Virus record (IMG/VR): IMGVR_UViG_3300037202_000009
Coordinates: 1-31,546 of that record
DNA from: a virus
Direction: 5' to 3' (one strand)
Length of the DNA stretch: 31,546 bases
Made by a program: the position numbers and the translations under genes. Position 1 is the first letter of the stretch, and each line of letters starts with the position of its first letter. Shown here piece by piece: positions 5,228 to 10,034 of the stretch. The notes beneath the pieces were generated by a model. That model saw only the letters and a program-made list of their open reading frames with translations. It was not told the DNA's origin and did no database searches.

Positions 5228-5472
5228 TTGCGGGCCTCGTCGATCATGGCCTGCCAGCATCCAGACGCCTGATCGTTGCCGACGCCCATACCATTCTTGG
5301 CAATTGACCAATCGCGTGCTGCGTTGAGCATTCCGTCTGTCGGCTCCCGCATGGCCTCTATCGCGGCGCGGGCGGCGCGGGCCGCGCGCTCCAATGTTAA
5401 ATCCTCCGCCTCTTGGACATCTCCGAGGGCCTTCATAAATGCCACCGCGGCTCTTTCGACCATCTTGCTCAT
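5224..5472 (-). CDS. conserved phage hypothetical (82 aa)
   Basis: ATG 5472 follows a GAGGG ribosome site 5 bases upstream. The protein has an Ala/Arg/Glu-rich helix ([20 protein letters not shown]), then [20 protein letters not shown], and ends in [13 protein letters not shown] associate this 'REPTdgML.Aa.DWS ... W.aMIDeA' pattern with small hypothetical proteins of alphaproteobacterial phages; no function is known to me. It is the first gene of the leftward trio. The 64-base gap upstream (5473-5536) separates it from the divergent rightward operon and holds the exact palindrome gtcatgac (5503-5510), but no clear promoter pair. Confidence 0.65.
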
Positions 5473-5536
5473 TTTTCCCTCTTGCATTCCGCGATAGTTG
5501 GTGTCATGACTCGGGCGGATAGTCAAGGGGGATGCG

Positions 5537-5704
5537 ATGGGCGAGCGGTTCGAGTGGGCGCACAAGTTCGCTGACATCCTGATTGACACGTTCAACCGCG
5601 TCTCGGCGGACACCGACGCGCTCAAGCACGCCCGCCGGTCGCGCGCGGCCCGCAAGGGCTGGCGGACCCGCAAGGCGATGGCGAAGGCGAGGGAAAAGCC
5701 ATGA
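5537..5704 (+). CDS. small basic protein (55 aa)
   Basis: An AAGGGGG ribosome site lies 6 bases before ATG 5537. The protein begins MGERFEWAHKFADILIDTFN and ends in a strongly basic tail (RRSRAARKGWRTRKAMAKAR). That suggests nucleic-acid contact but gives no family. Its stop overlaps the start of the next gene (CCATGA), so it opens the rightward coupled chain that leads to the terminase. Confidence 0.6.
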   Translation: MGERFEWAHKFADILIDTFNRVSADTDALKHARRSRAARKGWRTRKAMAKAREKP

Positions 5705-7291: not shown

Positions 7292-7560
7292 CCAGGATGC
7301 TGGCGACGTTCAAGGACGGATCAAAATGGCTGATGGAATTTGTCGACCTAGGCCTGATCGCAGAAGATCGCTATGTGGCCTATGTTGGATCGTCGACCCG
7401 CCGCCCGAGGATTGACCATCTGATCGTCGTCGAAAAGGCTGTCGTCGATTTAAGGGGCGCGCGGGGACGCGACGAGGAAGAAAGAGCAGGTTTGGCGGAA
7501 ATCGGTATCGTCGATTTTGATATTCTCCCGCCGGACCCAGACGAGGATACTGGAGCGTGA
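7288..7560 (+). CDS. small hypothetical protein (90 aa)
   Basis: It starts with an ATGA overlap with the previous gene, and its stop overlaps the GTG start of the terminase (GTGA). It is predicted to be alpha-beta with an acidic end (LPPDPDEDTGA). No recognisable motif. Position directly before the large terminase is where a small terminase is often found, but no helix-turn-helix is visible and the protein is short, so I do not call it one. Confidence 0.6.
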   Translation: MTRMLATFKDGSKWLMEFVDLGLIAEDRYVAYVGSSTRRPRIDHLIVVEKAVVDLRGARGRDEEERAGLAEIGIVDFDILPPDPDEDTGA

Positions 7561-10034
7561 GTTCCGTCTTCAACTTCATCGGGGGCACCAAGGCGGCAGA
7601 TTTCATCCTCGCCAATAACCCGGTAGATTATATCGGCGGCCCGATCGGCAGCGGCAAGACTAAAGCCATGTGTCTGCGCGTCGGCCGCCACGCCCAAGAA
7701 CAGAGGCCAAGCCCAAAAGACGGCGTTAGATATACGCGCTTCGCGATGGTCCGCAACACGATGCCGGACCTGAAACGCTCGACTATCCGCACCTGGCTAG
7801 AGACCTACCCGGAAGACACATACGGTCGATTTACCTATGGCGCGACGATGGGCCACAAGCTGCGCTATCCCTTCAAGGATGGCCCGGTCCATTGCGAGGT
7901 CGATTTCATCTCGCTCGACAAGACCGACGACGTCAAGAAGCTGCGCTCGACCGAGTATACCGGCGTATGCTTCAACGAACTGCCCTTCATCGAGAAGGAA
8001 TTGTTCGACGAGGCCGACTCGCGCTTGCGCTACCCGCCGCAGGAACATGGCGGCCCGACGTGGCGCGGCGTGCTCGGCGACGGCAACGCGCCCGACGAGG
8101 ACCACTGGCTCGCCACGATGGCCTATGGGCTCGACCCGCCGGTTGGTCTGGCTGAGGCCGATCGCGCGCTGTACGAATGGCCGGACTCGTGGGGCCTGTA
8201 CATGCAGCCCGCCGCGCTGATCGAGGAGTTCGACGCGCGCGGCCAGATCACCGGCTACCACATCAACCCCGAGGCCGAAAACCTAAAGAACCTGCCGGCC
8301 GACTATTACGATCGCCAACTGCGCGGCAAGACGAAGGCATGGATCGACTCGCGCCTGATGAACCGCGTCGCGCTGGTCGCCGAGGGTCAGCCGGTCTGGC
8401 CGATGTTCAGGCGCGAGTTTCACGTGTCGCGCGAGGCGCTGCGGCCGTTCCCCCATTACGACGTACAGGTCGGCCTCGACTTCGGCCGCGTCTATCCCGC
8501 CGCCGTGTTCGCCCAGGAGGTCGGCGGCCGCGTCTACATCCAATACGAAATGCTTGGGTTCAACGAGGGGCCGTCGGTCTTCGCGCCGAAGGTGCAGAAG
8601 TTCCTGACCCAGCACTACCCCGGCCAGAAGGTCCGCTTTGTCGGCGATCCGAAAGGCCGCGACAAGCACGACGAGCAATCGGCCTACGAAATTTGGGCCG
8701 CGCACGGGATGCCTGTGATCCCGGCGCCAGTGAAGATGAACGACATCGAGCAGCGCGTCGAGGCGGTCGCCTTTGCGCTGAACGACAATCCGGCCGGCGT
8801 CAACCGCGTCGTCATCTCGCCGGTCTGCCGGACGCTGGTCGTCGGCATGTCCGGCCGCTACCATTTGGAACGAGAAGAAAAAGGGGCGCTAACCCCTTCA
8901 AAAGACAAGTATTCGAATCTCTGTTTCGCCGCGGGGACGAAGGTGTCAAGGCGGCGGTACAGCCACGGCTCATTAGTCTCCAATATCGAGAGTCTTCTCG
9001 TCGGCGACCAGGTGTCCACGCCATTTGGGCCAAAACGCATAATTGCCACTGGACACAGAGAATCAGATACTGTAGAGCTTCTGTTGTCAAATGGCGTCAA
9101 GATCAGATGCACGCCTGACCATCCGTTTTGGACAGACCGCGGGTGGGTCGAAGCGCAGCACCTAGGTTCTGAACGCCTGATAATGGAAGGCGAAACAGGA
9201 TGCTTGCTGCCGTCAAATTCTGGACACGCTTCGGAAATCTCGCCTACGAGTTCCGAGGCCTCAGATTCTACGCGCGCCCGGACGGATATTTTCACAGCAA
9301 AAATCCTGGCGGCGTCCTCCTCCATCGAGAAATTTGGTCGGCAAACCATGGAGAAATCCCGGACGGCTATGACGTCCATCATGCCGACGATGACAAATCA
9401 AACAACGATCCAGGCAATTTTGAATGCCTGCCGAAGCCGGATCACTGCCGGCACCACATGCGGAGCCCCGAGCGCCTCGCCAAGTCTGCCAAATCGATCA
9501 AGATTGCGATCGAACGAGCGGCCGAAAAGCGCAGGGCAAACCCGCAATGGTCCCGAGAAATCTCATCTATCGCTCGCGTTGCCTCCATCGAAGCAAGGCT
9601 TAACGAACCCCTACAGACATTCCAGTGCGCCCACTGCGGACGGGACTACGAAGTCAAGCCCTCTTCTCGCAAGCGCGGCTTCTGCTCTATGTCGTGCCAG
9701 GGGATGGCTCGCAAGGCATCTGGCATCGACGACGAAGACCGCATCTGCGCCGAGTGCGGAGTCGCCTTTCGCGCGAACCGATACATTAGGAAGGATTGCT
9801 GTTCGCGTCGTTGCTCGGGGGTCGTCGCGGCGAGAAAGCGTCTACAACATCACGGTTGAGGACGTTCACTGCTACTACGCCGAAGGCGCGCTCGTGAGCA
9901 ATTGCGACGCGCTGCAATACCTCGTTCTTGGTCTCGGCGACGGCCGCCGCATGATCGGCCTCAGCCCGATCGGCCTGGTCATGCCGGCCAAGATTGGCCG
10001 TATGCGCCGGACGATGCGCAGGATTGCCGGCTGA
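7557..10034 (+). CDS. terminase large subunit interrupted by an intein (825 aa precursor; 498 aa after splicing)
   Basis: This is the ATP-driven DNA packaging motor and headful/site nuclease. The N-terminal ATPase has Walker A GPIGSGKT (28-35) and a Walker B-like GVCFNE ending in E141. The C-terminal RNase H-like nuclease has GLDFG with D308, GDPKG with D364, and the third acidic motif CDALQY with D784. A Hint intein fills residues 456-782, inserted just before CDALQY. Removal would join YSNL to CDALQY and give a normal 498-residue terminase. GTG 7557 overlaps the upstream stop and has GAGG about 9 bases before it. Base composition falls noticeably from about 8870 to 9850, over the intein, indicating transfer. 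Unspliced protein should lack a complete nuclease site. Confidence 0.9.
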   Translation: MSSVFNFIGGTKAADFILANNPVDYIGGPIGSGKTKAMCLRVGRHAQEQRPSPKDGVRYTRFAMVRNTMPDLKRSTIRTWLETYPEDTYGRFTYGATMGHKLRYPFKDGPVHCEVDFISLDKTDDVKKLRSTEYTGVCFNELPFIEKELFDEADSRLRYPPQEHGGPTWRGVLGDGNAPDEDHWLATMAYGLDPPVGLAEADRALYEWPDSWGLYMQPAALIEEFDARGQITGYHINPEAENLKNLPADYYDRQLRGKTKAWIDSRLMNRVALVAEGQPVWPMFRREFHVSREALRPFPHYDVQVGLDFGRVYPAAVFAQEVGGRVYIQYEMLGFNEGPSVFAPKVQKFLTQHYPGQKVRFVGDPKGRDKHDEQSAYEIWAAHGMPVIPAPVKMNDIEQRVEAVAFALNDNPAGVNRVVISPVCRTLVVGMSGRYHLEREEKGALTPSKDKYSNLCFAAGTKVSRRRYSHGSLVSNIESLLVGDQVSTPFGPKRIIATGHRESDTVELLLSNGVKIRCTPDHPFWTDRGWVEAQHLGSERLIMEGETGCLLPSNSGHASEISPTSSEASDSTRARTDIFTAKILAASSSIEKFGRQTMEKSRTAMTSIMPTMTNQTTIQAILNACRSRITAGTTCGAPSASPSLPNRSRLRSNERPKSAGQTRNGPEKSHLSLALPPSKQGLTNPYRHSSAPTADGTTKSSPLLASAASALCRARGWLARHLASTTKTASAPSAESPFARTDTLGRIAVRVVARGSSRRESVYNITVEDVHCYYAEGALVSNCDALQYLVLGLGDGRRMIGLSPIGLVMPAKIGRMRRTMRRIAG
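8922..9902 (+). mobile_element. Hint intein in terminase large subunit (327 aa)
   Basis: Block A is CFAAGTKV with nucleophile C456. Block B is CTPDHPFW with T519 and H522, the TxxH signature. Block F is SVYNITVEDVHCYYAEG, and block G is ALVSN followed by C783 as the +1 nucleophile. The last residue is Asn (N782), but the residue before it is Ser rather than the usual His. Between the Hint halves (about residues 549-740) the intein frame is Ser/Thr/Arg/Ala-rich with no domain character. The same bases encode an HNH endonuclease in another frame. Intein edges are set by the extein motif DALQY and the Cys/Asn splice residues. Confidence 0.88.
9200..9859 (+). CDS. HNH homing endonuclease nested out of frame inside the intein (219 aa)
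   Basis: The ORF lies wholly inside the intein but in a different frame (+2 relative to the terminase). It has its own ATG at 9200 and a GGAAGG ribosome site 9 bases upstream; an in-frame stop at 9170-9172 blocks fusion to the Hint N-part. Residues ~13-86 are an HNH_3-type nuclease: YEFRGLRFYARPDGYF, LLHREIWSANHGEIPDGYDV, then HHADDDKSNNDPGNFECL (H42, H60, H61, N68/N69, N73). Residues ~140-210 carry two Cys4 zinc-finger-like modules (C143/C146/C162/C166; C183/C186/C200 or C201/C205), presumably for DNA recognition. It should cut intein-less terminase genes and spread the intein. The stop lies within the coding sequence of the intein's block F. Confidence 0.85.
   Translation: MLAAVKFWTRFGNLAYEFRGLRFYARPDGYFHSKNPGGVLLHREIWSANHGEIPDGYDVHHADDDKSNNDPGNFECLPKPDHCRHHMRSPERLAKSAKSIKIAIERAAEKRRANPQWSREISSIARVASIEARLNEPLQTFQCAHCGRDYEVKPSSRKRGFCSMSCQGMARKASGIDDEDRICAECGVAFRANRYIRKDCCSRRCSGVVAARKRLQHHG

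Follow-up and report, generated by a model that had tools for sequence, protein, structure and literature searches.

We identified, in a viral gene for the large terminase subunit (TerL), a mobile intein whose two functions would be encoded by two overlapping reading frames, a reading to which we assign a probability of roughly 0.88. The DNA comes from an IMG/VR virus record, and the window is the whole stretch of 31,546 nucleotides that was analysed. The observations that carry this reading are the anatomy of the element, its conservation, selection in both frames, a signal at the internal start site, the empty insertion site and a footprint of co-conversion. The features of the locus are as follows.

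7557..10034, + strand: TerL open reading frame, read through the intein; 825 aa, GTG start; match to phrog_2 terminase large subunit, E = 1.1e-19
7557..8921, + strand: TerL N-extein; relatives run on uninterrupted past residue 455
8922..9902, + strand: class 1 intein, 327 aa, Cys1 to Asn327; exact ends confirmed by empty alleles
8922..9191, + strand: N-terminal Hint half with blocks A and B; modelled as ordered, pLDDT 90-98 except one 10-residue block at 72
9185..9190, + strand: Shine-Dalgarno-like GGAAGG, 9 nt before the HNH ATG; duplex -5.5 kcal/mol
9192..9791, + strand: intein-frame linker, the HNH region read in the intein frame; predicted disordered, pLDDT about 46, kept only stop-free
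9200..9859, + strand: gene for the out-of-frame HNH homing endonuclease (219 aa), with its own start (ATG) and stop (TGA); HNH_3, PHROG 15471, pLDDT 94.8
9317..9445, + strand: HNH_3 nuclease core; H60/H61, N69, N73 and H82 conserved
9626..9697, + strand: first Cys4 zinc-finger module of the HNH protein, C143/C146/C162/C166
9746..9814, + strand: second Cys4 zinc-finger module of the HNH protein, C183/C186/C201/C205
9792..9902, + strand: C-terminal Hint half (blocks F and G), ending in LVSN; pLDDT 91-95
9903..10034, + strand: TerL C-extein, starting with Cys+1 (CDALQY, terminase nuclease motif)

An earlier note, made from the sequence alone, had described a terminase/intein frame open throughout, a 327-residue intein and, in another frame of the same strand, a full 219-residue HNH protein with two Cys4 modules, its own ATG, a GGAAGG ribosome site and its own stop. 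Each of these points was borne out: the TerL frame has no internal stop, both ends of the intein are confirmed by the empty allele, and the HNH gene, its start signals and both cysteine quartets are in place. The element satisfies the criteria for a class 1 intein, namely N- and C-terminal Hint blocks, a position-1 nucleophile (Cys1 at 8922), a C-terminal Asn (9900-9902, ending VSN) and Cys+1 at 9903. Pfam Intein_splicing matches the terL frame at E = 4.1e-7, which is below the curated cut-off. The nested gene satisfies the criterion for an HNH homing endonuclease, a nuclease core with DNA-binding modules, since Pfam HNH_3 matches residues 40-82 (E = 1.1e-13) and PHROG 15471 matches the protein (E = 1.3e-30). 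Its catalytic and zinc-binding residues are invariant or nearly so across 41 sequences. Because the HNH stop codon falls within the C-terminal Hint half, the last part of the HNH gene shares its DNA with the coding sequence of the VYNITVEDV block. The criterion for a canonical in-frame endonuclease is not met at the window, as the HNH does not share one frame with the Hint halves, nor is that for a split intein with IntN and IntC on separate open reading frames, as the window holds a single open frame. A group I or group II intron carrying an open reading frame was rejected, with no Rfam match in the window.

Structure prediction was in line with this division. In the AlphaFold models, the intein is predicted to form a Hint fold in two ordered parts (residues 1-90 and 291-327, mostly pLDDT 90-98) joined by a disordered linker (about 46), and the HNH protein as a separately ordered fold (mean pLDDT 94.8). 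The intein model matched the gp41-1 intein 6qaz (E = 1.1e-5) and many other inteins. The best PDB neighbour of the HNH model was I-HmuI (E = 0.023), which was also matched in a separate profile search (E = 0.0077).

We searched for relatives with the HNH protein and found five nearly identical loci (97-100%) and a further seven at 38-42% identity. The HNH of all twelve lies inside a TerL intein with the same out-of-frame relation as in the window. In GenBank, the layout recurs in Tetrasphaera phage TJE1, Acinetobacter phage Highwayman and Rhodobacteraceae phage LS06-2018-MD07, as well as on a scaffold from a gut phage. Further scans covered viral contigs and bacterial and archaeal genomes, and loci were classified with IntN, IntC and HNH profiles. 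The HNH was nested out of frame in an intein at 88 distinct loci, all with the intein frame at HNH frame +1. Of the remaining distinct loci, one was nested in the other frame, 23 were split, no intein was detected at 56, and 4 were partial. No HNH in frame with the Hint halves was found among the classified distinct loci (88 nested, 23 split), and these HNH-seeded scans would detect in-frame cases equally well. Nested loci were also found in metagenome-assembled genomes of other phyla and on contigs assigned to Piscinibacter sakaiensis, Glycomyces amatae, Rhizobium lusitanum and Beijerinckia mobilis, the latter four presumably being prophages. Insertions in TerL seem to occupy at least three sites, as named from motif reading and not from structure: the nuclease motif before DALRY (the window), the Walker B region (L074, L148, L167) and a nuclease-motif-I-like site (L098). 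The single locus nested in the other frame (L119, 1288-4641) has a host open reading frame with NCRCRW after the intein, which resembles a minor head (MuF-like) protein. Two further loci (L172, L181) have open reading frames that apparently carry two inteins, one with an in-frame LAGLIDADG and one with an out-of-frame HNH.

In the 23 split loci (L015, L016, L045 and L157 among them), IntN and IntC stand on separate open reading frames with the same HNH family between them, and Vibrio phages 1.238/1.245.O show this state as well. The IntC open reading frame of split TerL inteins often has its own start. Natural split inteins might have arisen from loci of this type. Outside inteins, homologues of the HNH stand alone as complete genes adjoining terminase genes, and we infer that the HNH originated from a gene of this kind. 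In the weakly resolved HNH tree, the nested, split and free states required 22 parsimony changes, against a mean of 49.9 after shuffling.

We then examined how strictly each frame is maintained. Over the HNH region of 83 dereplicated nested loci, the intein frame contained 0 stops in 16,115 codons, compared with 141 expected from synonymous shuffling, and the third frame contained 1,185 compared with 1,297 expected. The nested class is defined by its open intein frame, so that the zero is partly by construction; the free-standing and split loci therefore serve as comparison classes. The corresponding frame carried 168 stops in 26 free-standing HNH relatives (172 expected) and 104 in split loci (98 expected). 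A frame left open by chance was rejected by the free-standing comparison and synonymous shuffling, the mean open-frame probability of the free-standing relatives being about 0.001. The other alternative frame of the free-standing genes contained 556 stops as against 168 in the +1 frame, from which we infer that the +1 relation dominates because this frame is easier to keep open.

Substitution patterns differed between the middle and the ends of the element. In nested pairs, the most variable codon position was position 3 of the HNH frame within the HNH and position 3 of the intein frame within the Hint halves (L126/L127: 0.113/0.102/0.355 and 0.060/0.043/0.308, respectively). The earlier note had proposed that substitution rates be compared in both frames. 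In three pairs (L126/L127, L071/L101, L021/L076), dN/dS was about 0.1 for the HNH and for the Hint halves, each in its own frame, and 1.0-1.9 for the linker in the intein frame, a value inflated because the silent sites of the linker are HNH first positions. Leu, Val, Met and Ile, whose codons produce stops in the intein frame, were rarer in nested HNHs (13.0 vs 15.0% at GC < 0.5, P = 4e-5). Taken together, position-3 variability, dN/dS and this depletion indicate that the middle is selected as an HNH, the ends as Hint and the linker only to remain stop-free. As judged from these alignments, purifying selection acts on the HNH and on both Hint ends, each in its own frame.

The insertion site was found empty in 59 of 64 classified TerL relatives. 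The closest of these uninterrupted alleles, at 96-98% TerL identity, read RYSDL/CDALQY without an insert (the slash marks the site), and the criterion of insertion in a conserved host gene was thus met. In the 100 nt flanking the insertion, the window differed from one empty allele (L294) by 21 mismatches, compared with 5.2 expected from the TerL average (P = 1.7e-7). Such an excess is the footprint expected from co-conversion during homing; on this sequence comparison it supports mobility, with cleavage itself inferred. Only a single insertion site and a single group of closely related empty alleles underlie this signal. The same comparison between Acinetobacter phages BP10 and Highwayman failed, as their TerL sequences were too divergent to align well. 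Elsewhere, window positions 7292-7555 and 5229-5648 do not align with the otherwise close relative L294 (nor the first stretch with L289), and the alignments suggest that these are replaced genes next to terL.

These observations can be assembled into a mechanism, in which splicing, internal translation and DNA cleavage are inferred, there being no experimental data on any of these steps. The two terminal Hint halves, encoded in the terL frame, would fold together and splice the terminase, and the about 200 residues between them would be disordered filler. The complete HNH with its two Cys4 fingers would be translated as a protein of its own from an internal start in the other frame. It would cut intein-less terL alleles at the intein site, and repair would copy the whole element. 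Selection against stops would keep the terL frame open, since a stop would block terminase synthesis. Where stops have accumulated, the locus would persist in a split state, with the HNH gene lying between the two intein halves.

The route to HNH expression was assessed from the start sites. The mean Shine-Dalgarno energy at HNH starts was -5.18 kcal/mol, compared with -2.87 +/- 0.29 for matched nearby out-of-frame starts, and control draws were as low in 0 of 2000 simulations. Energies of -5 kcal/mol were reached by 57% of HNH starts and 17% of control starts. About 43% of the nested loci have only a weak site, and at two (L026, L027) no evident start lies close to the conserved core. These weak sites, and the fact that ribosomes slipping by -1 in the intein frame would enter the HNH frame, would fit programmed ribosomal frameshifting from the terL/intein frame in place of internal initiation. 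However, in-phase slippery heptamers were present in the shift window of 11 of the 88 loci, against 13.9 expected, and there is none at the locus in the window analysed here; a second class of nested nuclease, described below, has the opposite frame relation; and start codons and Shine-Dalgarno sites are present at the HNH genes. Because Shine-Dalgarno sites are enriched and slippery heptamers are not, internal initiation is preferred, and frameshifting seems improbable.

Two other explanations were weighed. The HNH could be a decaying, untranslated passenger, junk between the halves of a fixed splicing intein, as truncated HNH matches in some relatives (L208, L254, L267) and related inteins without an endonuclease (L217 and others) might suggest. 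The HNH dN/dS, the near-invariant catalytic and zinc residues and the high-confidence predicted fold make this very improbable. Alternatively, as the earlier note had allowed, an ordinary in-frame intein could have undergone two compensating frameshifts, or the sequence could be in error. In-frame HNH inteins do exist, such as the CL131 dCTP deaminase intein (CDS start 757, HNH match 1501, difference 744), but no in-frame member of this family occurs among the 88 nested and 23 split loci. Moreover, the HNH has its own start and stop with an enriched Shine-Dalgarno signal, and its homologues outside inteins are complete genes beside terminase genes. Sequencing error is excluded by independent contigs with the same relative frame at 100% down to about 25% identity. 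This origin is thus extremely improbable. The same survey answers the question of whether the HNH is out of frame in relatives, and it supports the note's proposal of a splicing element with an overlapping, separate homing gene, of which splicing and translation remain inferred.

Intein homing endonucleases are described as domains nested in frame. Like canonical mobile inteins (CL131 dCTP deaminase, PI-SceI), the element in the window has a Hint domain, an endonuclease between its halves and a conserved target site in a host gene, whereas the endonuclease is a domain of the intein polypeptide in those inteins and a separate protein from another frame here. The CL131 intein has been reported to splice in E. 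coli (PMC6293099). Free-standing phage HNHs (Pseudomonas phage PAE1 Orf3, Lactobacillus phage CL2 gp3) belong to the same family with two Cys4 modules and lie beside terL, but they are not in inteins and their corresponding frame is interrupted by stops. For ShiLan, a 2025 paper described HNH genes concealed in another frame of a phage methylase insertion that has no splicing domain, the ShiLan HNH having two zinc fingers; the authors report no ribosome site, infer homing and cite a 2025 preprint (doi 10.1101/2025.01.02.630785) for overlapping frames (PMC11855218). Pacc40-type out-of-frame HNH insertions in phage methylases (PMC11855218) and Applejack gp54/gp55 (PMC12613952) are further cases. 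As in these, the insertion in the window leaves the host frame open with an HNH in another frame, and two zinc fingers are common to the ShiLan and window proteins. Unlike these, the window HNH is surrounded by a full intein, so that the criterion of no splicing domain is not met, and Shine-Dalgarno sites are enriched in the nested class. IntN and IntC profiles found no match in Applejack gp54, and the Applejack HNH belongs to another family (best match PHROG 589).

Dassa et al. reportedly described, in 2009, fractured genes in which a homing endonuclease gene lies between the parts of a split intein. AceL-NrdHF is an example (PMC7891396). They share the order IntN, endonuclease gene, IntC in phage genes, but the nested class has an unbroken intein frame that fully overlaps the endonuclease gene, so that cis-splicing of one precursor would be expected. 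The claim that no established class has this design therefore needs qualification: ShiLan-type insertions and fractured split inteins are known, and the literature searched contained no account of a Hint intein with an endonuclease encoded out of frame within it. The 2025 preprint cited by the ShiLan authors (Gosselin et al.), which is said to report actinobacteriophage inteins with "non-canonical architecture", may describe related architectures and may overlap with this finding.

If separate overlapping genes are widespread, intein annotation would change, as the entry for the host protein does not reveal the nuclease. The layout also offers a path by which a free-standing endonuclease could become intein-borne while the Hint fold stays intact, and an origin for split inteins that can be tested. 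It further supplies many natural examples of same-strand genes that overlap completely, some of them in isolated phages, in which dual-frame selection can be measured.

When the N-terminal Hint half was used as the query, the scan yielded 18 nested TerL inteins, 9 endonuclease-free inteins and 27 inteins with an out-of-frame nuclease in the middle. The 27 lie mostly in helicase genes, and all four representatives tested encode a DUF559 nuclease. A further intein of this kind is L257; loci of this second class include L209, L212, L261, L279 and L282-L285. Related Hint inteins with less than 150 nt between the halves and no endonuclease found were also observed (L217, L223, L276 and others). The DUF559 nuclease, which we take to have a Vsr/EDxHD-like fold, gave a weak PDB match to Vsr (E = 0.08). 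Its frame is the intein frame +1, opposite to the TerL HNH class. Across 25 dereplicated loci, the intein frame contained 0 stops in 4,662 codons, compared with 137 expected, and the other frame 222, compared with 223 expected. We incline slightly to the view that nesting a nuclease out of frame is a general design of mobile inteins that had gone unrecognised and arose at least twice, with unrelated nucleases and in opposite frames, separating splicing from endonuclease, and that natural split inteins and fractured genes result when the open frame is lost. The DUF559 layout is also present in the isolated phages CP-T1, MR14, 159E43-1b and 1.088.O, in genes annotated as helicase or P-loop genes.
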